Both the position numbers and the translations under genes were made by a program. 64,000 nt of DNA, from positions 62,001 to 126,000 of the forward strand of contig CADCFN010000004.1 in the NCBI GenBank assembly GCA_902800715.1, given 5' to 3'. The notes beneath the pieces are model-generated. The model searched no databases, had not been told where the DNA came from, and saw nothing but the letters and a program-made list of their open reading frames with translations. The first letter of the stretch is position 1. Each line of letters opens with the position of its first letter. Shown here piece after piece: positions 1 to 14,191 of this stretch. This DNA comes from an uncultured Bacteroidales bacterium (GTDB lineage Bacteria > Bacteroidota > Bacteroidia > Bacteroidales > Muribaculaceae).

Positions 1-2534
1 TCGAAGTAACGGTCGGTCTCAAAGCCCCAGATTTCGCCATACTGCTTACCAGAGTAGTTGGTGTTGATCATGTTATTGCTGTCCCACTTAGTGATCTTGG
101 TCTTGTAGTCACTCACGATAGCGGTAGCATAGAAATCAACATTGCCGATGCGGTTGCGGTAGTCAACACTAACTTCCCAACCACGGGTGCGCATATTACC
201 AGCGTTCTCCCATGCAGCGCTTGAACCGATGACTGAAGGCAGAGCCTTACCGGGAGCGAGCATGTCCTTATTCTCACGCTGGAACCAGTCGGCGGTCACA
301 TTCAGGTGGCCATTAAAGAAGGCCAGGTCAAGACCCACATTGAGGGTATGGATTTTCTCCCAGGTCAGCGATTCCGAAACCATCTTGGGAGCTGAGAAGT
401 AGTCATACTTGGAGTTACCGGTACCAATCCAGTTCACGTCGTTGGTCTGCTTGGCCATGGTCTCGAGGAACATGTACTGGCCAACCTCCTGGTTACCAAT
501 CATACCATAAGAAGCGCGAATCTTGGCATTGCTGATGGTGTTCTTGATAGGAGCCCAGAAAGCCTCCTCACTGATGCGATAACCGATAGAACCTGAGGGG
601 AAGAATGCCCACTGGTCCTTCTTGGGGAACTTGCTCGAACCGTCATAGCGACCGTTCAACTCAATCAGGTAGATACCCTTGTAGTCATAGTTGATGCGGC
701 CGAAGAAGCCTGCCGAGCCCCAGTGGTCATGCCTGTGACTATAGCTGTAGTCCTCGTTAGTGAGAGCAAGCTCAGGCATGTTAAGATCCTGAAGACCGTG
801 ACGCTCATAGTACAGGTACTCATAGTCGGTCTTATCCACGTTGGCGCCCACCTTCAGGTTGAAGTTGTGAGCATCCTTGATGGAGCGGCGCCAGTCGAAG
901 TAGCCGTTAGCTACATGGTTCTCGGTGAAGGCGCGAGAGGTCTCGATGAAGGTTGAACCCGTGATGTCCACAGGACCTTGAGGATTCAGACCCCAAGTGT
1001 TATAGACAATCGAGGGAAGACCGATGCCTTTATACCTGTTGGTCCTCTTGATGAAGGTGTAGTCGGCATTGAAGCTCAAACCGTAACCGAAGTCGATTTT
1101 GCCAAATACGCCCAGACTCATGTTGTTCATCTTGTAGTAGCAGTCACCACCAGTGTTGCGACCGCCGATCATCGTGCGGGCGTCATACTGCTTGCCGTCG
1201 TTAGGATCCTCGAAGTAGCCGTAAGGGCCGAAGAACGAACCCCAGCGCCACAGGTACTGATAGGTACCGGCACCGCGCTTGTAGGGAGTGTTATAGGTCC
1301 TGTCAACATAGCTGACACGGGTACCCAGTTCCAACCAATCGGTAGCACGCACCGATACATTGGCCGTAGCGTTGTACTTGCGGAACTTGTCGGGGTTGAA
1401 GTTCATCAATGACTGCTTCTGGTTGTAGCCAACCGAGGTGTAGAAATTGATGCGGCCCGAGTTGCCAGTTACGCTCAGGTTGTGGCTCTGTGAGGGAGCA
1501 TGGTTGTTGAAGATGATGCCGGGCACATCCCAGTTGGCATAGTAACCGTTCTCATCATAGTCGTCACCATAGACCATCTTGCGATACTTTTCCTTGATGT
1601 CGCCATGCTTCTTGATCCAGTTGTTGATACCGTTCTGGAAAGCCTCGCTGTCCATGTACATACCGAAGAGCTCCGATGCAACGCCCATGCGGTGGTTCAC
1701 GTCGTTAAGGGCGCTAACTTGGGTGGGAACGTTGGGGTAGTCGGGCAAGGTGGTAGCCTGGCTCCAAGCGAAGTTGTTGTTGTAGCTCACCCTGACGTTG
1801 TCCTTCACGTGGGCGGTTCTGGTGGTAATCAATACAACACCGAAGGCTGCACGCGTACCGTAGATTGAGGTCGAAGCAGCATCCTTCAGGACACTGATGT
1901 TCTCAATATCGGCGGGGTTCAGGTCACCCAGAGATTCAACGGGTACACCGTCAACGATATACAACGGGTTGGAAACACCATTGTTGGACAGCGTACCGAT
2001 ACCACGGATAACAATCGAAGGATCGGCACTGATGTCACCGTTGGCGTTCAAAATCGTCAAGCCAGGGACGGTACCTTGCAGGGACTTCCTGACGTCGGTC
2101 TCGGACTTGGAACCGAGCACCTTGTCAACGTCCACGGTGCTCACGGCACCGGTCAGGTTGGCCTTACGCTGCGTACCGTAACCAACGACTACGATTTCAT
2201 CGAGGCGGGCATTGTCCTCGGGGAGAACGACGCGCATGCCGCTGGCAGCGCGCACGGTCTGCGTCTTGTAGCCGATAAACGAAATCTGAAGCTTAGCGTT
2301 GGGGCTAGCTTTGAACGAGAAGTTACCGTCCACATCGGTCGATGTGCCACGGGTCGTTCCAACCTCGACAATGCTGGCGCCGATGACGGGTTCACCCTGT
2401 TCATCGACAACGCGGCCTGTCACAATGCTGGTGGCGGATGTAGCCGACACCTGGGGCGCGGGTGCTGCCTGTGCCTGGTAACCGGTACCGCACAGCATCA
2501 ACAAAGCGCCCAAAAGAGCTAAATGTCTTTTCAT
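1..2534 (-). CDS. SusC-like TonB-dependent transporter, C-terminus outside window
   Basis: Open from an ATG at 2534 to the left edge, giving 844 codons; the last barrel strands lie outside the window, since SusC proteins are usually about 1000 residues. Visible parts are a signal peptide (about residues 1-23, ending QAQA), a carboxypeptidase-D-like beta-sandwich (about 38-108, GRVVDEQGEPVIGAS), the DEIVVVGYGTQ segment (112-122), a plug with SVLKDAAS and IYGTRAAFGVVLITT, then aromatic-rich barrel strands. The family forms ligand-gated outer-membrane pores that import oligosaccharides or peptides with a SusD lid, powered by TonB. A SusD partner would be expected beyond the left edge. The gene diverges from the next SusC across a 165-bp AT-rich spacer. 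The substrate cannot be read from sequence. Confidence 0.93.
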   Translation of the reverse strand, partial: MKRHLALLGALLMLCGTGYQAQAAPAPQVSATSATSIVTGRVVDEQGEPVIGASIVEVGTTRGTSTDVDGNFSFKASPNAKLQISFIGYKTQTVRAASGMRVVLPEDNARLDEIVVVGYGTQRKANLTGAVSTVDVDKVLGSKSETDVRKSLQGTVPGLTILNANGDISADPSIVIRGIGTLSNNGVSNPLYIVDGVPVESLGDLNPADIENISVLKDAASTSIYGTRAAFGVVLITTRTAHVKDNVRVSYNNNFAWSQATTLPDYPNVPTQVSALNDVNHRMGVASELFGMYMDSEAFQNGINNWIKKHGDIKEKYRKMVYGDDYDENGYYANWDVPGIIFNNHAPSQSHNLSVTGNSGRINFYTSVGYNQKQSLMNFNPDKFRKYNATANVSVRATDWLELGTRVSYVDRTYNTPYKRGAGTYQYLWRWGSFFGPYGYFEDPNDGKQYDARTMIGGRNTGGDCYYKMNNMSLGVFGKIDFGYGLSFNADYTFIKRTNRYKGIGLPSIVYNTWGLNPQGPVDITGSTFIETSRAFTENHVANGYFDWRRSIKDAHNFNLKVGANVDKTDYEYLYYERHGLQDLNMPELALTNEDYSYSHRHDHWGSAGFFGRINYDYKGIYLIELNGRYDGSSKFPKKDQWAFFPSGSIGYRISEEAFWAPIKNTISNAKIRASYGMIGNQEVGQYMFLETMAKQTNDVNWIGTGNSKYDYFSAPKMVSESLTWEKIHTLNVGLDLAFFNGHLNVTADWFQRENKDMLAPGKALPSVIGSSAAWENAGNMRTRGWEVSVDYRNRIGNVDFYATAIVSDYKTKITKWDSNNMINTNYSGKQYGEIWGFETDRYF

Positions 2535-2699
2535 AAGCACGTTTTAATTTGTTAATATTAAGTTGTTAATTCACCTTTTTCTTTTGCCACATGAACCCTC
2601 TTCTTTGTCCAGAGGGTTTTTAATTTTTTTTAATAAAGTGCAAAATTCTATATTTTTTTTGAAACAGCCAAAAAAAACGGGCTTGTTTTACAAATACAA

Positions 2700-5600
2700 A
2701 TGTTAAAAACTACAAAAATCCGTACAAGACCTATAAATTTTAGCAGAAATACTATTGTTTACGGTAGTGATAATGTTTTTTTCTTCTCAAAGATTTGGTC
2801 ATGTGATTTTTTAAAACAATTAGCACTGCTCTGTACACTGGCGATAGCCATGGGAGTGCCTGCAGGACTGGCGCCAAGTCAGTCATGGACGGGCTTCACA
2901 GCTGTTGCCCAGAGCAACCGAGTCAACGGCGTCGTTAAGGACGCCAACGGAGAGCCGATGATTGGCGTTAATGTGAGGGTAAAGGGCACTAACACGGGTA
3001 CGACCACCGACATCGATGGCCGTTATTCGATTAAGGCCGACCCCAACCAGACGCTCGTCTTCTCCTTTGTGGGCTATGACGCGATCGAAGTTCCCGCGTC
3101 GCAAGCCGCCAACGTACAGTTGACCGAAGGCGCCAACACCCTGCAGGATGTGGTGGTGACGGCCGAGTTCGGTATGAAACGTGTCGCCCGCACCGTGGGT
3201 TCCTCGGTGCAGAACGTGAAGGCCCAGGACATTGTTGAGTCGGGCCGCACCGACTTTATCTCGGCCCTGCAAGGTCGTGTATCGGGTATGAGCGTCGTTA
3301 GTTCGGGTGGTGCCCCTGGTTCATCAACGACTGTTGTGCTGCGCAGTGCCACGTCACTGAGCGGTAACAACCAGCCGCTGTATGTTATCGATGGTATCCC
3401 CATGAACAACACTTCGTTCAACCCCACCACGGGTCTGGCAGCTGCCGATGGCGGTATCACTGGCCTGACTCCCCGTACCACTGACTACTCGTCGCGTGGT
3501 AACGACTTCAACCCCGAGGACATCGAGTCGATGACCGTGCTGAAGGGTGCTGCTGCAGCCGCTCTGTATGGTAGTGACGCCTCGAACGGTGCCATCATCA
3601 TCACCACCAAGAAAGGTCGCTCAGGCCGCGCTCGCGTGACCTACAGCAACCAGATTACTTGGTCCAAGGCCTATGGTTGGCCCAAGATTCAGGACAAGTA
3701 CATCAATGGTGCTTATGGTGCTGCCAACTTCTACTACACCAGCCGTTACGGTTCGTTGTATGACGGCACGATGCCGTTCTATGACAACACGGCTGCCGTG
3801 CTGCAGACTGGTTTCATGCACCGCCACAACCTGTCGATGGAGGCTGGTAACGACAAGATGTCGGTTCGCGCCAGCGCTTCATTCTTTGACCAGGATGGTG
3901 TTATCAAGACCACGAGCCTGACGCGTACTAACCTGTCGTTGGCCGGCCGCGCCGAACTGACCAAGTGGTTGTCGATGGAAGGTAGCATGCAGTATGTGAA
4001 CGCCAAGAACGACAAGGCCCTGCGTGGTCTGTATGGTCCCGTTCGCAACAGCTATCGCTGGCCGAGTGTCGATGACATGAGCATCTATCTGGCCGAGGAC
4101 GGTGCCCACATGAAGTATCCCGCCTTCTATACCGACACCGACCTGCTGAACCCGCTGTATGGCTTGAAGAAGAACTTGATGCACGATGAAACCGACCGTA
4201 TCATCAGCGCTTTCTCGCTGAACTTCACGCCGATCCGTCACACTTACCTGCGCTTGCAGATGGGTTGGGACGTGAGCACCTCGACCTATGAGACGGGCAC
4301 GCATCCCTATTATACAAGTGCCAACCAGAGTGTCGACGACAGCAATAATAGCGGTACCTATAACATCACCAAGTACAACACCAACGACCCGACGCTCAAC
4401 GTGCTGGCCGGTTACAACAACAGCTGGATGGACAACAAGTTCTCGCTGGGTCTGCAGGCTGGTTACCACCAGCTGGAGAACGGCGTGACGAGCCTGTCGT
4501 CCTATGGTACCAACTTCAAGGTGATTGACTTCTACAGCATCAACAACTGTACCGAGAGCACCGTGACCAGCAAGAAGCGCTCGACCAAGCGCCGCGTGCA
4601 GGCTATCTCGGGCCAGTTGGAGCTGGGCTTCAACAATATGATCTTCTTGACTGGCCGTTTCCGTAACGACTGGTCTTCGACCCTGCCCAAGGATAATAAC
4701 AGCTACTTCTATCCCGCTGGCGAGCTTTCAATCGTGTTGAGTGAGATGGGCTTCATGAAGCATGTCGGCTTCATCAACTACCTGAAACTGCGTGGCGCTA
4801 TCGCCCAGGTAGGTAAGGATGCTCCCGTGCTCTCGATTGACCCCGAGCTCGAGCCCACCGGCCTGACAGGTGGCGGTTACAAGTATGGCTACACCGGTCC
4901 CAACCGCAGCCTCAAGCCTGAGATGACCACCTCCTATGAAGCTGGTGTTGAGGCCCGCTTCTGGAATGACCGCATCAATGCCGACTTCACCTGGTTCCGC
5001 ACCCATTGCGCCGACCAGATTGTGACTGGCTTCCGCATGAGCTACGCTACCGGTTTCGTGCTGAACAATATGAACGTGGGTACGTTTAACACGTGGGGCT
5101 GGGAAGGCCACGCCGACGTTGACGTAGTCCGCACAAATGATGTCCGCTGGAATGTGGGCGTGAACCTCTCTCACACCAACAGTGAGGTCGTTTACCTGCC
5201 CGAGAACCTGGTTGAGTTCTACAATGCTTACACCTGGAACTCAGGTAACATCCGCAATGGTGTGATGAAGGGACATCCCATCAGCACCGTAACCGGTAAC
5301 GCCTACGAGCGCAACGAGGCTGGTCAGATTCTGATCAATCCCACGACGGGTCTGCCTCGCGTCAGCGCCGATTGGAGCATCCTGGGTAACCGTGAGCCTA
5401 AGCTGCGCTTCGGTCTCACCACCGCCTTGAGCGTGAAGAACTGGCGCCTGAGCGCTATGTTCCAGGGTCGCTACCATGCCGACGTTGTCAACGGTACCAT
5501 GCGTGACATGTTGGGCACCGGTCTGAACTGGCTGTCGGTTGACATGCGCGAGAAGGGCTTCGTCGTATTTGACGGTGTGCTCTACGATGGCAAGCAAGAT

Positions 5601-6506
5601 ACTCCCAATCCCACCAAAAACACCATCGCTGTCAACCTAGGCGAGTATGGCCAGTACACCTACACTGGTGGTGATGAGGACTGGATCCAGCACAAGATCA
5701 ACTATATTCGTTGCCAAGAGCTGCGTCTGGCTTATATCATTCCGCAGAATTGGCTCCGCAACGTGACCCGTGGCACCATTCAGAATGGTAGCATCTATGT
5801 ATCAGGCAATGACTTGTTCACCATCACCAACTACACGGGTACCGACGTTGCCGGTAACACCATGTCGGCTGCTGCCGGTGGTACCGGTGGTGAGGGCTAT
5901 GACATGTGGTCGCTGCCCACTCCGCGCAGCTACTCTGTCGGCCTGAGCGTGACCTTCGGTTCCAACGATGAGGCTCCCAAGCCTGTTTATCAGAACACGA
6001 CGGCCCTCAACGACCAGATCAATGACTTGCGCGCACAGCTCGCCAATGCCGAGAACAACTATAACAGCCGCCTGGCTCAGCTGCAGGGTGACCTCGACAA
6101 CGCTACCCGCGCCCTGGCCAACTGCAAGAGCGACTTGGCAGCTGCTAAGAATGTTGCCCCCAAGATTGTCGACAACAGCAAGCAGTATATGAACATTCTT
6201 GTTCACTACCCCGTGAACAAGACCGCTATCGGTGCTGACCAGCGTCCCAATGTGGAGCGCATCGCTTCCTACATGAAGAGCCATCCCGAGGCAACCTGCG
6301 TCATCAAGGGTTATGCTTCGCCCGAGGGCAATCAGGAGAACAACATCAAGCTCGCTAACGGCCGTGCCGCCAGCGTGAGGGATCTGCTCGTGAACAAGTA
6401 TGGTATCGCTGCCAACCGCATCAAAGCCGAGGGTCAGGGTATCAGCAACATGTTTGACGAATTGAGCTGGAACCGTGTTTCGATTTGCGAAATCATCGTG
6501 AAGTAA
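2700..6506 (+). CDS. SusC-like TonB-dependent transporter with C-terminal coiled coil and OmpA-like domain
   Basis: A 1268-residue protein. An unusual, AT-rich N-region of about 38 residues precedes a hydrophobic stretch (39-58); no ATG lies closer to it, so the ATG at 2700 is taken by default. Then come a carboxypeptidase-D-like domain (about 74-142), the LQDVVVTAEFG segment, a plug (SMTVLKGAAAAALYGSDAS) and a barrel ending near residue 1095 (YSVGLSVTFGS). Beyond the normal SusC end there is a heptad-rich helix (about 1100-1150, ALNDQINDLRAQLANAE) and an OmpA_C-like domain (about 1158-1267: GYASPEG, NGRAASVRDLL, WNRVSI). OmpA_C domains bind peptidoglycan; here the Asp of the usual GHTD motif is Ser, while the RA arginine is kept. 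First gene of an operon with a SusD-like protein and a lipoprotein. The fusion is read directly from one open frame; its role in anchoring the transporter to the cell wall is inferred. Confidence 0.92.
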   Translation: MLKTTKIRTRPINFSRNTIVYGSDNVFFFSKIWSCDFLKQLALLCTLAIAMGVPAGLAPSQSWTGFTAVAQSNRVNGVVKDANGEPMIGVNVRVKGTNTGTTTDIDGRYSIKADPNQTLVFSFVGYDAIEVPASQAANVQLTEGANTLQDVVVTAEFGMKRVARTVGSSVQNVKAQDIVESGRTDFISALQGRVSGMSVVSSGGAPGSSTTVVLRSATSLSGNNQPLYVIDGIPMNNTSFNPTTGLAAADGGITGLTPRTTDYSSRGNDFNPEDIESMTVLKGAAAAALYGSDASNGAIIITTKKGRSGRARVTYSNQITWSKAYGWPKIQDKYINGAYGAANFYYTSRYGSLYDGTMPFYDNTAAVLQTGFMHRHNLSMEAGNDKMSVRASASFFDQDGVIKTTSLTRTNLSLAGRAELTKWLSMEGSMQYVNAKNDKALRGLYGPVRNSYRWPSVDDMSIYLAEDGAHMKYPAFYTDTDLLNPLYGLKKNLMHDETDRIISAFSLNFTPIRHTYLRLQMGWDVSTSTYETGTHPYYTSANQSVDDSNNSGTYNITKYNTNDPTLNVLAGYNNSWMDNKFSLGLQAGYHQLENGVTSLSSYGTNFKVIDFYSINNCTESTVTSKKRSTKRRVQAISGQLELGFNNMIFLTGRFRNDWSSTLPKDNNSYFYPAGELSIVLSEMGFMKHVGFINYLKLRGAIAQVGKDAPVLSIDPELEPTGLTGGGYKYGYTGPNRSLKPEMTTSYEAGVEARFWNDRINADFTWFRTHCADQIVTGFRMSYATGFVLNNMNVGTFNTWGWEGHADVDVVRTNDVRWNVGVNLSHTNSEVVYLPENLVEFYNAYTWNSGNIRNGVMKGHPISTVTGNAYERNEAGQILINPTTGLPRVSADWSILGNREPKLRFGLTTALSVKNWRLSAMFQGRYHADVVNGTMRDMLGTGLNWLSVDMREKGFVVFDGVLYDGKQDTPNPTKNTIAVNLGEYGQYTYTGGDEDWIQHKINYIRCQELRLAYIIPQNWLRNVTRGTIQNGSIYVSGNDLFTITNYTGTDVAGNTMSAAAGGTGGEGYDMWSLPTPRSYSVGLSVTFGSNDEAPKPVYQNTTALNDQINDLRAQLANAENNYNSRLAQLQGDLDNATRALANCKSDLAAAKNVAPKIVDNSKQYMNILVHYPVNKTAIGADQRPNVERIASYMKSHPEATCVIKGYASPEGNQENNIKLANGRAASVRDLLVNKYGIAANRIKAEGQGISNMFDELSWNRVSICEIIVK

Positions 6507-6605: not shown

Positions 6606-8492
6606 ATGAAATCATTCAAATCAATTATACTGTGTGCGCTGGCTTGCTTGGCTATGGGTCTGACATCCTGTGACGACTATTTGGATGTGAATAAGAACAC
6701 CGACGCTCCTGACTATGTGGAGGGTTACCTCTATCTGGCAGGTATCCAGCAGGCTTATCAGGGCATCTATTGGGACATCCGTGCCATCGGACCGCTCACC
6801 CAGATGATGGGTACCTCGAGTTACACCAGCTTTGCCAACCATTATTACAGCAAGGCCAGCGATGCCGGTGGTGAGGCTTGGCGCATGGTTTACTGGAACC
6901 AGGGAATGAACCTGGAGAACATGATTAACCAGAGTGTTGAGGCTGAGAATTGGACATTGGCCGGTATAGGCATGGCGATGAAGGCTTTCTCTTGGGACCT
7001 GCTGACCAAGATTAATGGTGAGGCACCCATGAAGCAGGCCTATGAGGCAGGACGCCTTGACCATCAGTATGACTACCAGTATGACATCTATCCCCAGGTG
7101 CGCGAGTGGGCCTATAAGGCTATTGAGTACCTGCAGAAGGAAGATAATTCGGCCTATGGTAATCGTATCAAGAACAACGACTACATCTACGGCGGCGACA
7201 AGGACAAGTGGATCAAGTTCTGCTATGCGGTGATTGTCCGCAACCTGGCCTCGCTGAGCAACAAGAAGGACTTTTCGGAGAAATACCTTAGTGAGTTCAT
7301 GGACGCTTTCCACAAGGCTTTTGCCAGCAACGATGACAATGCTACCCTGAAGATTGCCGGTGGTGGTGCCGACGCAGCCGAGAGCGGTTACAACAACTTC
7401 TGGGGTACCTATCGTGGCAACCTGGTTTACAGCTACTTCCAGCATGACTATCCCGTACAGCTGTTCACGGGTACCATCCGCAAGTATGACGAGCAGGGCA
7501 ACTATATCCAGACCGAGGACACCGTGCCCCTGAACAAGCAGCATTATCCCTACCAGCTGCTTGACAAGCAGATTACCAGCGACACCCTGCCCGATGCCGG
7601 TCACTTCGACCCGCGCCGCCTTGTGAAGCTGGCAACCACCGATAGCAGCAACTATGCCACCATTGCCGACCGCGAGGTGCTCCGCAGCCTCTACTATGTG
7701 GGCTCGGGCTTCACCGGTGCTACCGGTCCCATTGGCACTGCTCCCTCGTTCTGGGGTCGCAACGCTACGTCTAATACCAGCTATGACGGCGCTGGACACT
7801 GGCTCTATCGTGACGATGCTCCCTATATCTTGACTACCTATGCCGAGTTGCTGTTTGACGTCGCCGAGGTACTGTTCAAGTATGGCAGCAAGTCTGATGC
7901 CTTTGAAGTATGGAAGCAGGCCATGGCTGCCGATATGGAATTCACTGCCAACTACATCGTAGCCGGTACCTATGACGGCAAGTACCGTCAGGGTGACCGT
8001 GTGACCAAGGCCACCTTTAATGCGCTGGCCCAGGAATACTTGAATGGTCCCTATGTGGCTGGTCTGCCCATGAGTGACTTCTCACTCTCGCACATCATGA
8101 TGCAGAAGTACCTCGCCCTCTATCCTTGGGGCGCTCCCGAGGCTTGGGTTGACCTGCGCAAGTACTTCTATGACATCCAGTACACTGGCGATTATCCCAA
8201 GTACAATAATGGTTGGGATAAGACCACTCTTGACCAGAAACGCGACGAGGACCCCACCAAGGTTTACAAGGGATTCTGGCTGCAGCCTGCACAGGTACAG
8301 GGCCGTAAGAGCGCTTTCAATGTTGACAACAACGGTTCGCCCTGTTTCCGCATCCGCCCGCGCTACAACTCCGAGTACATGTGGAACAAGACCAACCTGG
8401 ATGCTCTCAAGCCCATTGGCGGTCAAGAACTTGATTACCAGTGCTCAATCATGTGGTTCTGCTATCCTGGAGATATGCCTACTACAAGATGA
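6606..8492 (+). CDS. SusD/RagB-like outer-membrane lipoprotein (SusD_2 type)
   Basis: 628 residues with a lipoprotein signal peptide (hydrophobic 5-18, lipobox LTSC, lipidated Cys about 22) followed by DDYLDVNKNTDAP, the opening typical of the SusD/RagB superfamily. The length and the conserved WAPEAWVDLRKYF-like region near the C-terminus (seen as GAPEAWVDLRKYFYD) fit the SusD_2 branch. Such proteins sit on the cell surface, cap the SusC pore and bind the substrate. It lies 99 bp behind the SusC-OmpA fusion, the spacer being filled by heptad repeats, and is followed after 32 bp by another lipoprotein, so the three are probably one operon. Substrate unknown. Confidence 0.92.
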   Translation: MKSFKSIILCALACLAMGLTSCDDYLDVNKNTDAPDYVEGYLYLAGIQQAYQGIYWDIRAIGPLTQMMGTSSYTSFANHYYSKASDAGGEAWRMVYWNQGMNLENMINQSVEAENWTLAGIGMAMKAFSWDLLTKINGEAPMKQAYEAGRLDHQYDYQYDIYPQVREWAYKAIEYLQKEDNSAYGNRIKNNDYIYGGDKDKWIKFCYAVIVRNLASLSNKKDFSEKYLSEFMDAFHKAFASNDDNATLKIAGGGADAAESGYNNFWGTYRGNLVYSYFQHDYPVQLFTGTIRKYDEQGNYIQTEDTVPLNKQHYPYQLLDKQITSDTLPDAGHFDPRRLVKLATTDSSNYATIADREVLRSLYYVGSGFTGATGPIGTAPSFWGRNATSNTSYDGAGHWLYRDDAPYILTTYAELLFDVAEVLFKYGSKSDAFEVWKQAMAADMEFTANYIVAGTYDGKYRQGDRVTKATFNALAQEYLNGPYVAGLPMSDFSLSHIMMQKYLALYPWGAPEAWVDLRKYFYDIQYTGDYPKYNNGWDKTTLDQKRDEDPTKVYKGFWLQPAQVQGRKSAFNVDNNGSPCFRIRPRYNSEYMWNKTNLDALKPIGGQELDYQCSIMWFCYPGDMPTTR

Positions 8493-8524: not shown

Positions 8525-9397
8525 ATGAAATATTTCAAATATATAGCATTATTGTTGCTGGTTGCAGTGATGATGGGCTCTTGTGACAAGAAGGACGTGT
8601 CCTACATGGCCGAACCCGTTGACGAGACCCAGATGGCATACGTGCAGGTGGGCTATTATGCACCTGTTACTGCCGGTGCAGCCAATTACATGTACTACAT
8701 TGACCTTAATGGCATTGAATATGGTAATGAGGGCGGTACTTTCTTAGCTACCTTCAATACTGTTCCTTCAGGTGGCACCAACCGCTTCTATGTTGTTCCA
8801 GCTGGTTCCCTCAACCTCAAGTTGCACTCGCGCGTGAGTGATGGCAACGGTGGCTACACCTACCCCGTCGTTTATGACCAGAACGTGACCGTGCAGGCCG
8901 GCAAGCGCTATTGTCTGTATGTACACGACCTGAACAAGGCTCCCATCCCCATCGAGATGACTCCCGCTCCCGAGTTTAACAAGGGTCTCGATACCGACTC
9001 GCTGTGCCGTGTTCACTTCGTCAACCTGCTCTACGAGGCTGACGGAACGCCCTACACCGGCAAGGTGCAGTATGGTGTTCAAAACTTGGATACCAAGGAA
9101 TATGAGCCCGTGGGCGAGCCCATCGGCTTCGGTGAGAGCACCAAGTGGTTCACTGTAAAGATTCGCAAGACCGTTTACAACAGTAGTGGTTCTCAGCGTC
9201 GCGAGGTTTGCCTCTTTGCTGTGGATAACGCTGGTAAGGTAACGGGTAAGCTCCCCTACACCTTGTCTAACGGCAACCAGGGTGAGTTTACCGATTACTG
9301 GACCTGGTACATCGGCCGTGCTTATCGTCAGATTGCCGCTGGTAACTGCGGCAGCAAGACCATCCGCTGCACCCTCTATCAGTTCGTGATTGAGTAA
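8525..9397 (+). CDS. Lipoprotein, DUF4397-like, third gene of SusC/SusD operon
   Basis: 290 residues from the ATG at 8525, which puts a standard lipoprotein signal (KYFKYIALLLLVAVMMGSC) at the N-terminus; an upstream in-frame TTG at 8504 is less likely. The following region (AYVQVGYYAP, GTNRFYVVPAGSLNLKL, VTVQAGKRYCLYVHDL) resembles DUF4397, a beta-sandwich found in many Bacteroidota surface lipoproteins. Being third in a SusC-SusD operon, it may be an additional surface substrate-binding protein. The family call is from memory of the fold pattern and is only moderately secure; the lipoprotein call is firm. Confidence 0.75.
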   Translation: MKYFKYIALLLLVAVMMGSCDKKDVSYMAEPVDETQMAYVQVGYYAPVTAGAANYMYYIDLNGIEYGNEGGTFLATFNTVPSGGTNRFYVVPAGSLNLKLHSRVSDGNGGYTYPVVYDQNVTVQAGKRYCLYVHDLNKAPIPIEMTPAPEFNKGLDTDSLCRVHFVNLLYEADGTPYTGKVQYGVQNLDTKEYEPVGEPIGFGESTKWFTVKIRKTVYNSSGSQRREVCLFAVDNAGKVTGKLPYTLSNGNQGEFTDYWTWYIGRAYRQIAAGNCGSKTIRCTLYQFVIE

Positions 9398-9526: not shown

Positions 9527-10999
9527 TTATTTATATGCCTCATTTTGCTGCCCTGCAAGTGCAGGGTTGGCATTGATCTCATCCTGATCGATGGGCAGAA
9601 CGATTTTGCCGAACGTGCGGTCGATGGTTTTGGGCCGTCCGTTGACTGCAATGCCGCCAAAGTCATCGTTGAAGGTGATGGAACGGTTCATTCTCATCAT
9701 GTCAAAGAAACGGTGTCCCTCGCAAAACAGTTCCTTGCTACGCTCATCAAGAATCATGTCATCGTTGATCGTCGATGCAGTGGCTGGTTCCAGTGATGTG
9801 GCGCGGCATCGAATGGCGTTGAGGTATTGGGCGGCTTGCTCGGCATTGGGCTTCGAGGCATGCAAGGCGGCTTCGGCTGCAATGAGGTAAATCTCACTCA
9901 ACCTAATGACTTTAATGTTGACCGATGTAGGAGATTCCTTGCCGTCGCCATTCATGTCAGGCCCACCCATGTACTTGTTGCAACTGCCCAAATGGGTGTA
10001 TTCGCTCTCGTCCTGATACATCACACTCCAACGCACGTCGGTGGGGTCTTGTGCCAGACGCTCAAGGTAGTAATCGCTTGCCATGAACCATCCTGCAGCA
10101 CCGCTCTTCAAGCCGTAGCGCATGAGGTAAAACCCCAGCGAATAGGTGCCCAAATCAGCCTCTGCTGAATAAATGCCCAGCTCAAAGATGCTCTCAGAGC
10201 CAAACTGCTTTTTCCATGAGTCGGCCCACTGTGAGGGCTCATAAAGCTTGAACTTTCCACTGCCGATGATTTCTTGAGCGGCAGCCAGTGCTCCGTCATA
10301 ATCTTCCATATAAAGCTTTACACGGGCTTGTTCGGCCAGGTTGGCATAGTAGCCCATGTAACCGTCTTGCTGAACTTTGCCGTTCTCGAGAAGAGACTTA
10401 CCTTGGTTCAGATCGCTAATGATTTGCTTGTAAACCTCCTCGACAGTGGCTCGGGTGGGTTGAGCACTAGCAGGCAGGGTTTGGGTTACCAAGGGAACAC
10501 CCAAGCTGCCCTTATCATAGTTGTAAGGCTTGCCATAGAGGCGCACAAGGTCAAAGTAGATGAGAGCACGCAACGTGAAAGCCTCGCCCTTACACTGATT
10601 ATAGCTGGCGGCATCCTCGCTGGTACCGTTTTCAGTAATGCGGTCAATGTTCTCAAGCAGGTTATTCACTTGAAGGATGCAATAATAGCCAGTGGACCAG
10701 AAACCACTGTAAGAACCCGATGTGGCAGAGTGATTGAAACTGTACAATCCGTCTAAGCCACGTCCTTGAGAGGCGATAGTGAGATCGCCGCCCTTGGCAT
10801 CTCCGTACATAAAGAAATTGCGGCCGTAGTAGGACGATGATGCCATGGTACGCATGATGCCGTTGATGATAACGCGGGCATCTGTCGGCGTGGCAATTGC
10901 TTCGGCACTGTTAGCACTGTTAGTGGGCTCCATGTCAAGGAAATCGTTACATGACACGAGCATCAGCATGGACAGCAACAGGAATGATATCTTTTTCAT
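9527..10999 (-). CDS. SusD/RagB-family nutrient-binding lipoprotein
   Basis: 490 residues from the ATG at 10999; the longer in-frame start at 11029 would spoil the signal peptide. Lipoprotein signal MKKISFLLLSMLMLVSC with lipidation at Cys about 17, then NDFLDMEPTNSANS, a standard SusD opening. The TPR-like helical body and the C-terminal signature (ILDERSKELFCEGHRFFDMMRMN) match RagB/SusD proteins. It follows the SusC gene 11036-14191 with a 36-bp gap, in the order SusC then SusD usual for the family. It would form the surface lid of that transporter. No glycoside hydrolase or peptidase accompanies the pair in this window, so the substrate cannot be guessed. Confidence 0.94.
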   Translation of the reverse strand: MKKISFLLLSMLMLVSCNDFLDMEPTNSANSAEAIATPTDARVIINGIMRTMASSSYYGRNFFMYGDAKGGDLTIASQGRGLDGLYSFNHSATSGSYSGFWSTGYYCILQVNNLLENIDRITENGTSEDAASYNQCKGEAFTLRALIYFDLVRLYGKPYNYDKGSLGVPLVTQTLPASAQPTRATVEEVYKQIISDLNQGKSLLENGKVQQDGYMGYYANLAEQARVKLYMEDYDGALAAAQEIIGSGKFKLYEPSQWADSWKKQFGSESIFELGIYSAEADLGTYSLGFYLMRYGLKSGAAGWFMASDYYLERLAQDPTDVRWSVMYQDESEYTHLGSCNKYMGGPDMNGDGKESPTSVNIKVIRLSEIYLIAAEAALHASKPNAEQAAQYLNAIRCRATSLEPATASTINDDMILDERSKELFCEGHRFFDMMRMNRSITFNDDFGGIAVNGRPKTIDRTFGKIVLPIDQDEINANPALAGQQNEAYK

Positions 11000-11035
11000 T
11001 GATATGTCGTGATTGAAAAGTTTGACCATGTTTAG

Positions 11036-14000
11036 TTAAAATTTCAAGTTAACGCCTAGAGTGAAAGTCTTGCCCAGCGGGGTTTCCCAACCGCGGGTTC
11101 CATACTGGTTCACCTCGGGATCGGCATCCTTGTACTTGCTAAAAGTGAGCAAGTTAGTAGCGCTAAAGTAAATGCGTGCTCCCTGCATGTAAGCTTTCGA
11201 GACGAAGGCCTTGGGCAGGTTGTAGCCAATGCTGACATTCTTGAGGCGCAGGAAACTGGCATTGCAGATGTGGCGTGAAGAATACTGCATGGCATCCTCC
11301 AGGTCAATACCACGAATCATAGGCTCGCTACCGTTGTGATTCTCGGCTGTCCACATGTTGTCATAGTAGTTCTTGGAGCGGATGCGTTCCCAGTAGTAAC
11401 CATCATCGGCCACATCCTTGTAAGCACCATCATAGAGGCTTCCACCAATCTTATAGATGAAGTTGGCAGCCAGTTCAATGCCCTTATAACTCAAAGTGGT
11501 GTTGAGACCTCCTGTAACATCGGGAATGGCATTGCCAATAATTGTATTGTTGGCTTTTTTATAGTCATAGGTCGCTCCACGACCGTTGTAAATAAAGTCA
11601 CCTGCCTGGTCATCTTCCGGGGCATTGACATAATATACGCTGGCACCATTTGACTGATCCACACCAGCCCATTCATAGCCATAAAATGCCAATGTGGATT
11701 CACCCTCACGATAGATGTACTGTGCGCGATCATCGTCACCAGTGGGGTCATACCAGATAATGTCTGCTCCATTATAAAGTCTTTTGACCTTGCTGGTAAG
11801 GAAAGTGGCGTTGACCGATGCTGTCCACTTCCAATCGCGGTTGCTAATGATGTCATAGCTCACTTCGGTTTCCACACCGTGGTTGTTGATACGTCCTATA
11901 TTGCGCAGGGTTGATGAAAATCCCGTGACACGTGTGATGGGCATATCCTGAAGCAGGTTCTTGGATGTGCGGTTGAAGTACTCAATGCTACCACGCAGAC
12001 GATTACCCCAGAATCCGAAGTCGATGCCCACATTATAGGTGTAGTTGGTCTCCCACGACAAGTCATTGTCTGCAAGGGTGGAAAGTGTGCCGCCTGGGTC
12101 ACCCATGTACTTAGTGTTATAAGTAATGAGGTTCATGTAGCCGTAATTGTTGGTGGGCAAGGTACCATTTACACCATATGACATGCGCAGCCTGAGGGTG
12201 CTCACATTTTCCAGCGACTCCATGAAGCTCTCGTGCTTGATATTCCATGAACCAGCAAGCGACCAGAAGTTACCCCAGCGTGAATTGCGGCTCAACTTAG
12301 ATGAACCATCACGGCGGAAACTTGCTGAAGCAAAATACTTGCCTGCATACTGGTAGTCGGCCTTGCTAAGGAACGAAACGAGTGAATTACCCCAACGGTA
12401 GCCCGATGCCTCGGTGCTGCCTGCAGTGCTCACGGTGTGGAGCGTACTGGTGGGCAGATTGGTACCTGTTGAGCGTGTGAAATCGGTCTTGTTCTTCTCG
12501 GCTTCAAAGCCTGCCATCAATTGTATGTTGTGGTCGCCAAAACTCTGGTTGTAATTGGCTGTAGTGCTTGATACCATCTTCTCATAGACCGTGCGCATCT
12601 CATGCACTCTGCCATTATCGGACGAAGCAGAGAAGTGGTCGGCGCTGAAGTAGATGTGATCCTTAACAGCGGTGTTGTCATAGGAGAAAATCGACTTAAC
12701 GTCAAGTACAGGCAACAGATGCAAGTTGAGGGCTTCGGTGACATTGAACTTGTTGTTCTGTGCCTTGTTTTCCCACTGCTTGTTGTAGTAGAGCGCATTG
12801 TAGGCATAACTGCCATAACGGCTGGTCCAATCTTCGCCTGTCTCAAAGTCGGTGGGCCAGTAAAACCCCCAAAGCAGGTTGCGTGTCTGCATGAACAAAT
12901 TATTGCCAGTGTTGCGGGTGTCGTTGTAGCCTTCAGTGGTCGTGCGACTGGCGCTGACGTTGGAAGACAACTCGAGGAATTTGCCAGCCTTGGCTGTCAA
13001 GTTGATGCGTCCGCTGAAGCGGTCAAAATTGTTGATGCGGATACGGCCCTCATCGCGGGTGTATGCAAACGAGGTGTAGTAGTTAACATTAGGAGTTGCA
13101 CCGCTCACAGCGAAGTCATAGTTCTGGAAGGTGGCAGTACGGAAATAGGCTTTGTCCCAGTCGAAGTATTTACCTGCTCTACCCGAGTTGTTGTAGTCGC
13201 TGATGATAATCGGCGCATTCAGGCCAACACCCTCGGTGGAGAAGGCATAGCCGTGCTTGTTGAACCTGCGGTTGAGCTGCCCCAAGGAATAAGAATTAGC
13301 GGCTTCATCGCTGCTGCCCCCCGAGGTTTTATAATCATGGAATACTTTGTAAAGCATTTCCACCTGCTGCTCAGTCTTGGCGGGCTCATAGTTTTTAGTT
13401 GCCCACGATGGCGTGAAACCCACCGATATATTCAAATCAACATGGGTCTTGCCTTGGGAGCCTTTCTTTGTTGTGATGAGGATAACACCATTAGCAGCGC
13501 GTGAACCATAGAGTGATGATGCGGCAGCGTCCTTAAGCACAGAGATAGACTCGATGTCGTTAGGACTGAGCGAATTCATCACGTTGTTGGTTGAGTAGAT
13601 ATAGTCACTCATTTGTCCAACGTCACCGCTGGTAACGGGCACACCATCGATGACATAAAGGGGCTCATTGCTCGCGTTCATTGACCCTATACCGCGGATG
13701 CGGATGCTTGGAGCCGAACCAGCCTGACCGCTACTGTTGGAAACCTGGAGGCCCGCAACGCGTCCATTGAGCGCATTCTCAAAAGTGGTGATGGGGATGT
13801 CCTTGAGCGCATTTTGGCCTACCATACTGGCAGATCCGCTGTAACTGCTTTTCTTGGCAGTGCCATAAGCGACAACGATTACCTCGTTCAGATCATGAGG
13901 AGATTCACTCATGCGAACCTCAATAGAAGTTTTACCCTCCACGTCATGCTCCTGTGAAAGAAAACCAATGTAGTCAAATGTAAGCGTTGCTCCTGGAGAA

Positions 14001-14191
14001 CACTTGATGGAAAAGCGACCATTGGCATCGGTCATTGTAGCCGTAGAAGTTCCCTTAACATGGACGCTAACCCCCATGAGGGGTTCGTCATGGTCGTCGA
14101 GCACTGTCCCAGAAAATGTCTGGCCGCTCTGAGCCATTGCATTGATGAAACTGATCATCAACACAAATACTAGAATTAAGATTTTTTTCAT
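11036..14191 (-). CDS. SusC/RagA-type TonB-dependent transporter
   Basis: 1051 residues, full length for a SusC protein. Signal peptide about 1-20 (FVLMISFINAMAQ), carboxypeptidase-D-like domain about 24-95 (GTVLDDHDEPLMGVSVHV), NEVIVVAYGTAKK segment, plug with SISVLKDAAASSLYGSRAANG, and a barrel ending in the usual aromatic terminus (TFTLGVNLKF). It is the first gene of a two-gene operon with the SusD protein 9527-10999. A TAATTTTG element on the minus strand (plus coordinates 14286-14293) lies about 95 bp upstream and may be its -7 box. Role: TonB-driven import across the outer membrane together with its SusD. Confidence 0.95.
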   Translation of the reverse strand: MKKILILVFVLMISFINAMAQSGQTFSGTVLDDHDEPLMGVSVHVKGTSTATMTDANGRFSIKCSPGATLTFDYIGFLSQEHDVEGKTSIEVRMSESPHDLNEVIVVAYGTAKKSSYSGSASMVGQNALKDIPITTFENALNGRVAGLQVSNSSGQAGSAPSIRIRGIGSMNASNEPLYVIDGVPVTSGDVGQMSDYIYSTNNVMNSLSPNDIESISVLKDAAASSLYGSRAANGVILITTKKGSQGKTHVDLNISVGFTPSWATKNYEPAKTEQQVEMLYKVFHDYKTSGGSSDEAANSYSLGQLNRRFNKHGYAFSTEGVGLNAPIIISDYNNSGRAGKYFDWDKAYFRTATFQNYDFAVSGATPNVNYYTSFAYTRDEGRIRINNFDRFSGRINLTAKAGKFLELSSNVSASRTTTEGYNDTRNTGNNLFMQTRNLLWGFYWPTDFETGEDWTSRYGSYAYNALYYNKQWENKAQNNKFNVTEALNLHLLPVLDVKSIFSYDNTAVKDHIYFSADHFSASSDNGRVHEMRTVYEKMVSSTTANYNQSFGDHNIQLMAGFEAEKNKTDFTRSTGTNLPTSTLHTVSTAGSTEASGYRWGNSLVSFLSKADYQYAGKYFASASFRRDGSSKLSRNSRWGNFWSLAGSWNIKHESFMESLENVSTLRLRMSYGVNGTLPTNNYGYMNLITYNTKYMGDPGGTLSTLADNDLSWETNYTYNVGIDFGFWGNRLRGSIEYFNRTSKNLLQDMPITRVTGFSSTLRNIGRINNHGVETEVSYDIISNRDWKWTASVNATFLTSKVKRLYNGADIIWYDPTGDDDRAQYIYREGESTLAFYGYEWAGVDQSNGASVYYVNAPEDDQAGDFIYNGRGATYDYKKANNTIIGNAIPDVTGGLNTTLSYKGIELAANFIYKIGGSLYDGAYKDVADDGYYWERIRSKNYYDNMWTAENHNGSEPMIRGIDLEDAMQYSSRHICNASFLRLKNVSIGYNLPKAFVSKAYMQGARIYFSATNLLTFSKYKDADPEVNQYGTRGWETPLGKTFTLGVNLKF

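Follow-up and report, generated by a model that had tools for sequence, protein, structure and literature searches.

Architecture of the fused SusC gene

The stretch of DNA analyzed here, referred to as the window, comprises 64,000 nucleotides from an uncultured Bacteroidales bacterium of the family Muribaculaceae (assembly GCA_902800715.1, contig CADCFN010000004.1); it is the span G000:C4:62001-126000 of a genome, G000, that is 89% complete. Near its left end lies a gene in which a SusC-type transporter runs on, in one frame, into a long helix and an OmpA-like domain. We refer to this gene and its orthologues as type A, and its parts are as follows.

2700..6506, plus strand: susC-coil-ompA fusion gene (type A), 1268 amino acids, a single uninterrupted frame with known orthologues
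2922..3158, plus strand: CarboxypepD_reg-like domain (CarbopepD_reg_2, Pfam), residues 75-153
3189..3593, plus strand: TonB plug domain (Pfam), residues 164-298
within 2700..6506, plus strand: SusC signature TIGR04057 (NCBIfam), residues 274-304, over its cut-off
5925..5960, plus strand: last barrel strand in the model (the 22nd by our own count), residues 1076-1087, ending at the terminal Phe of unfused orthologues
5961..5996, plus strand: variable linker, residues 1088-1099 (alignment and model)
5997..6149, plus strand: long heptad-bearing helix, residues 1100-1150 (models of the whole protein and of the tail)
6189..6503, plus strand: OmpA-like, predicted peptidoglycan-binding fold, residues 1164-1268, with the PF00691 core at 1172-1250 (Pfam and models)
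6318-6320, plus strand: codon of Ser1207
6363-6365, plus strand: codon of Arg1222

Pfam placed the TonB_dep_Rec barrel at residues 468-958 and the OmpA domain (PF00691) at residues 1172-1250, with a score of 46.5 bits against a cut-off of 27.2. Together with the OmpA fold seen in the model, this bears out the full OmpA_C-like domain described in an earlier note on this DNA. The NCBIfam SusC/RagA family TIGR04056 matched residues 74-1086 over model positions 2-981 of 981 (625.6 bits, cut-off 368.25). The barrel is therefore complete, as the earlier note had it; its end, which had been put near residue 1095, lies at residue 1087 (RSYSVGLSVTF), where unfused orthologues stop and the predicted strand 1076-1087 finishes. 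The protein continues for 181 residues after Phe1087. Ending at the last barrel strand is usual for SusC proteins without defining them, and the fused protein does not keep this habit. It has the other attributes of SusC/RagA: the full-length TIGR04056 match with the signature, the plug, 22 strands (in a model of mean predicted local distance difference test score, pLDDT, 59) and an adjoining SusD.

The model of the whole protein (residues 70-1268, mean pLDDT 59) contained 22 barrel strands by our own count, a helix at 1100-1149 and an OmpA-like fold, and its top Foldseek matches were 5fq6-5fq8. The last barrel strand, at 1076-1087, comes before the helix in this model. When the tail was modeled alone (mean pLDDT 74), it again folded as a helix at 1100-1150 followed by the OmpA fold, and its top fold matches were the C-terminal domains of OprF and Acinetobacter baumannii OmpA, including 3td5 with a peptidoglycan peptide. 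The helix had been called heptad-rich. The helix itself is seen in both models. Of 20000 shuffles, 180 reached its heptad contrast with the residue set ILMVF and 1898 with the wider set AILMVFYW, so that the heptads are weak by the latter measure.

The fusion recurs across the genus

The earlier note had presented a single transporter with an unusual tail. The tail is not a single oddity: it is a clade-wide module found on several SusC genes, among them the divergent neighbor of the window gene. A search with the 163-residue tail found fusions in frames of about 1200-1363 amino acids in many genomes of the genus, along with shorter ones where a contig ends or breaks. A scan of named genomes yielded 112 relatives, and the best 80 of the 112 correspond to 73 loci; the titles of these records name uncultured Bacteroidales, Muribaculaceae, Prevotellaceae or Porphyromonadaceae bacteria, and some mention goat, sheep, water buffalo or roe deer. 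A module match running into a SusC end was present in 38 of 101 genus genomes (E better than 1e-78), so that the SusC-coil-OmpA order has homologues in many separate assemblies of related organisms. Among the remaining 63 genomes, 6 had nothing at E 1e-30 and 57 had weaker matches only (best E 9e-67), which in ten of these 57, among the matches listed, lay in standalone frames of 414-428 amino acids; many genus genomes are incomplete and single absences mean little. Shortened fused copies occur in five genomes (G127, G095, G019, G036 and G136). In G017 and G032 the type B copies, and in G032 also the type A copy, are interrupted or shortened (L047 12465-16183; L048 8910-12567; L048 15608-16795); these are pseudogenes or bin errors.

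Across the order (393 genomes, 207 genera), no other SusC with the tail was among the matches listed, down to about E 3e-11. The two other frames of more than 1000 amino acids among these listed matches proved to have other architectures, namely VWA-propeller-OmpA (L233) and SprB-repeat-OmpA (L234). The family sample (25 genomes, 24 genera) gave 171 OmpA matches, all but a few of them listed, and among those listed only the two of G000 lay in frames of more than 1000 amino acids. In the phylum, 4 of 395 genomes had a match at E 1e-25, and the three beyond G000 were in frames of 384-389 amino acids. These samples speak to this tail, and independent fusions with other OmpA domains lie outside their reach. 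No such fusion was named in the titles and abstract openings returned by a literature search, a thin basis; the matches included Myxococcus Oar and the type IX secretion protein PG1058.

The same importers occur without the tail

The tail is carried by four SusC genes (A, B, C and D), one of which has two alternative barrels. A search with the type A barrel returned 14 rows with the tail, our own included, at 91-100% identity (the G095 frame is shortened and one G036 copy has a shortened tail), and 13 unfused rows at 65-73% identity in frames of 997-1147 amino acids; these counts omit three fragments, two of G006 and one of G032. For type D there were 17 fused rows (78-82% identity, frames of 1122-1260 amino acids, G019 with a shortened tail) and 9 unfused rows (64-69%, 971-1058 amino acids). 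Type C gave 12 rows at 82-93% identity in frames of 1227-1301 amino acids, two shortened G036 fragments besides, and 10 rows at a lower 68-73% in frames of 1097-1155 amino acids. A second version of the C barrel, C2 (about 48-53% identity), exists both fused and unfused.

The unfused proteins stop at the terminal Phe or its counterpart (for example ...RTYSVGLSVTF), and several of their operons are arranged in the same divergent order. This stop places the start of the tail just after the Phe and agrees with the earlier statement that SusC normally ends at its last barrel strand. In a tree of the ObgE protein from 28 genomes, rooted on two other genera, the fused species formed one clade (15 of 15, support 95/90); G009 and G016 had no ObgE match, and G009 is therefore unplaced, though its standalone OmpA protein is, with that of G000, the closest to the fused tails. 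In G002 a fused C gene adjoins an unfused B gene, and at L171 1090-4290 an unfused type B barrel of G070 is nested among fused ones, though G070 lies outside the fused clade; the latter is a case of barrel transfer or tail loss.

One tail lineage on unrelated barrels

A quick tree built from 74 SusC barrels requires the fused state to change 6 times, each time on account of a starred branch, and a topology holding all fused barrels as one clade was rejected by the approximately unbiased test (p-AU 3.4e-6; run on 27 of the 74 barrel rows, with no mixture model). These two results rule out a single ancestral fused SusC whose barrel later diverged. By contrast, all 59 fused tails formed one clade (Shimodaira-Hasegawa-like approximate likelihood ratio test, SH-aLRT, 96) beside the standalone OmpA proteins of G000 and G009 in a tail tree that took in 12 standalone proteins. 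Since one tail lineage thus sits on unrelated barrels and the fused species are one clade, we infer one capture of the tail followed by copying onto other susC genes.

Within this lineage the tails mostly track their locus: B and D each form one group, A is accounted for by two changes, and C stands apart. Tails of the C1 and C2 barrels are partly intermixed, with 3 barrel-label changes among the C rows, and the C1 tail of G032 falls in a starred group with C2 tails; this mixing suggests that barrels were exchanged under the tail at the C locus. Fused and unfused species alike (e.g. L041 2285-6130 and L042 1586-5506) have two barrels about 49% identical at this same divergent locus, which is an allelic barrel replacement. 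In G023, a type C1 barrel (L053 2906-6769; tail also L018) carries a tail of the A/B/D group, suggesting that tails too were exchanged between genes. Tails of A and B genes were more alike within than between genomes (0.919 versus 0.883; 81 of 20000 permutations, 6 genomes), a clear sign of ongoing copying for this pair.

The neighboring susD genes carry a related pattern. A SusD leader of the KSIILC type was found beside most of the A-, B- and C-type fused SusCs compared. The motif [FL]KSII occurred beside 9 of 9 fused and 0 of 11 unfused type A genes and beside 15 of 15 fused and 0 of 13 unfused type C genes; for type B it was present in 14 of 15 fused and already in 2 of 5 unfused cases. 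None of the 22 SusDs listed beside D-type genes had it. Copying of a tract from the B locus would produce such a pattern, although the source is uncertain, because D lacks the leader and the tail tree does not put B first.

The tail might have spread as a conserved 3' arm for exchanging susC barrels and susD leaders, with no importer role of its own, leaving a functional but dispensable tether. The two barrels and partly intermixed tails of the C locus would fit such a history, as would the leader counts for A, B and C. However, the C1 and C2 barrels are both found tailless in other species of the genus, so that their exchange needs no tail, and the shared leader is missing from all 22 SusDs listed beside D-type genes. 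Moreover, the per-type medians of the ratio of nonsynonymous to synonymous substitution rates (dN/dS) in the OmpA domain were 0.11-0.18, which indicates selection on the domain itself; the domain is therefore under purifying selection and maintained in all four genes. We consider a tail without an importer role unlikely.

The putative ligand-binding site

In A. baumannii OmpA, diaminopimelate is contacted by Asp271 and Arg286, as an excerpt of PMC5974059 describes. The equivalent of Arg286 is Arg1222, which is kept in 84 of 84 distinct tail sequences. The equivalent of Asp271, the Asp of the GHTD motif, is Ser1207; among the distinct tails this position is Ser in 83 of 84 and Val in the other. 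The alignments thus bear out the earlier remark that Ser stands where Asp is usual. The remark does not, however, set the fusion apart: the same Ser was seen in 4 of 4 aligned standalone OmpA proteins of the genus, and a ligand site peculiar to the fusion is ruled out on these grounds.

The loss of the Asp invites a different reading of the domain, in which it would bind a periplasmic protein or lipoprotein partner (for example another SusC tail, a chaperone or a part of the Ton system) in place of peptidoglycan, and the tail would recruit or oligomerize importers. A long heptad helix could indeed self-associate. Yet the standalone proteins aligned share the Ser, the tails retain both the Arg and the overall fold, and binding to the wall is the usual role of OmpA-family domains in outer membrane proteins. 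To us, partner binding is an improbable account of the tail.

The domain also has Cys residues at 1200, before a GYAS motif, and at 1263, within NRVSIC. Both are invariant in the 12 fused tails aligned, and Cys1263 alone is present in all 16 rows of another alignment, standalone proteins included. The two are a possible pair.

Neighboring genes and the 5' end

The genes around the fusion are the following.

3..2540, minus strand: 5' part of a divergent second SusC-OmpA fusion (type C), 1279 amino acids in total (L009 8701-12540), whose coil-OmpA end lies left of the window (in L009 from 8701)
2541..2699, no strand: region between the two divergent fusions, unlike eight relatives aligned and probably rearranged
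6606..8492, plus strand: susD partner (SusD-like_2, Pfam) with the leader KSIILC (leader comparison)
8528..9397, plus strand: third operon gene, lipoprotein-like by eye, with DUF4397 below cut-off (Pfam)

The third gene had no match in the Protein Data Bank (PDB) at E 1. Further right, at 9527-14191 on the minus strand, lies a further SusD/SusC pair without an OmpA match. Across G000, 17 SusC proteins exceeded the TIGR04056 cut-off, and the 2 of these 17 that are fused are divergent neighbors of each other. An OmpA search of the same genome gave 8 matches, two of them in frames of about 1280 amino acids, i.e., the window gene and its divergent neighbor.

The beginning of the window gene is unusual. 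Seven of eight relatives aligned have the start GTGCGTATGAAAAAACAA, and the window sequence ahead of AAAACAATTAGC differs; no match to the relatives' conserved start within 3 mismatches was found anywhere in the G000 genome. The ATG at 2700 is in frame and would add about 37 residues ahead of the signal core. In five of the fused genomes read (G025, G035, G024, G018 and G075) C and A are separated by a type B operon, which is not so in G000, though A directly adjoins C in several unfused species as well. The 5' end of the window gene (2541-2900) was probably rearranged, perhaps by loss of B.

Comparison with known proteins

The barrel resembles that of BT2264, a SusC/RagA protein of Bacteroides thetaiotaomicron (PDB 5fq6-5fq8), with which it has the plug, the 22-strand barrel and the SusD partner in common. 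BT2264 was the best PDB match both by sequence (302 bits versus 129 for the next) and by fold. The match stops with the barrel, at residue 1084 of 1268, whereas the fused protein goes on past Phe1087. The BT2264 complex carries peptides, and a peptide substrate for the fused importer would be a guess.

The tail resembles the end of two-domain proteins of the OmpA family, such as OmpA, OprF and a standalone frame of 415 amino acids in G000 (G000:C15:46992-47489), which have the same coil-OmpA tail. Identity between the tail and the standalone proteins listed for fused genomes is 56-62%, and those aligned have the same Ser for Asp. What differs is the part ahead of the coil, where in the fusion a SusC TonB-dependent barrel stands in place of the N-terminal part of the standalone protein.

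A wall tether and a nutrient channel are also united in one protein in OmpM of diderm Firmicutes, to judge from an excerpt of Silale et al. (2023, PMC10628300). The parts are unrelated: OmpM combines a trimeric porin with an SLH domain at the N-terminus, whereas the fusion joins a TonB-type importer to an OmpA domain at the C-terminus, and no SLH match was among the nine families of the window Pfam scan. By analogy, the fused protein may at most work like OmpM.

A proposed wall-tethered importer

On balance, we think it likely that these genes encode wall-tethered TonB-dependent SusC importers whose tail was captured once and then copied by recombination. According to this model, the importer would pair with the SusD encoded at 6606-8492, its 22-stranded barrel would close as in an ordinary SusC, and the coil-OmpA tail would be an addition after the terminal strand. 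From the barrel the chain would pass through a short linker into a helix of about 50 residues reaching into the periplasm, about 7.5 nm long at 0.15 nm per residue, and end in an OmpA-family domain predicted to bind peptidoglycan. A span of 7.5 nm is close to the usual distance between the outer membrane and the wall. The tail most likely tethers an active importer to peptidoglycan, which is the best reading of it; the importer would then double as a non-covalent tether between outer membrane and wall that keeps the SusCD complex at a fixed distance and position. Such a tether would plausibly give the complex a firm base against the pull of TonB on the plug, fix it in place, or simply add to the number of tethers. 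As for its origin, the tail would derive from a standalone OmpA-family protein, whose coil and OmpA end would have been captured in the ancestor of the clade; recombination would later have copied the tail onto the other SusC genes among A, B, C and D.

Ton-driven uptake uses peptidoglycan as an anchor on the motor side, through ExbD (PMC10771500). With the fusion, an anchor would be present on the side of the transporter too. A more far-reaching version of the model, in which the coil-OmpA cassette is a transplantable wall anchor copied between unrelated SusC genes and the wall takes the reaction force of the TonB pull, is one that we put forward tentatively, as possible rather than probable.

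Several observations weigh against the tether model. The structural model of the whole protein has a mean pLDDT of 59, and the barrel tree, made by a quick method, carries warnings about its long branches. Ser occupies one of the two diaminopimelate-contacting positions, so the affinity or the ligand may differ. The similarity of tails within a genome is small for B and C (0.809 versus 0.802; 77 of 20000 permutations, 12 genomes) and absent for A and C (7984 of 20000 permutations, 7 genomes). The six further OmpA-family proteins of G000 make other tethers possible. Finally, the unusual 5' end leaves expression of the window copy uncertain, and the extra residues ahead of its signal core do the same for export.

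An assembly, sequencing or frameshift error that joined susC to ompA can be dismissed. In its favor, the record titles point to metagenome bins or uncultured isolates, the tails resemble repeats of one another, and copies in G019, G036 and G136 are shortened. But 38 of 101 genomes and four genes have the join, mostly in intact frames with susD directly downstream, and in those unfused loci that were read, no ompA gene intervenes between the shorter susC and the susD after it. Neither of the two conditions that the earlier note named as refuting the fusion therefore holds.

Among the main nutrient gates of gut Bacteroidales are the SusCD importers, none of which, to our knowledge, has been described as wall-anchored. 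Here, one clade has put a single borrowed part on several importers, and related species have left the same importers free. Whether fixing a TonB-dependent importer to the wall matters is thus testable by comparison with the untailed species; if the tether is real, the remaining species of the genus, which carry these operons without the anchor, would be a natural control for transport, position and envelope mechanics. A protein domain has also been passed between distantly related importer genes, at certain loci along with the neighboring susD's leader, which is a modular way for susCD loci to evolve. OmpM offers a parallel from a different phylum, where unrelated parts unite tethering and uptake.

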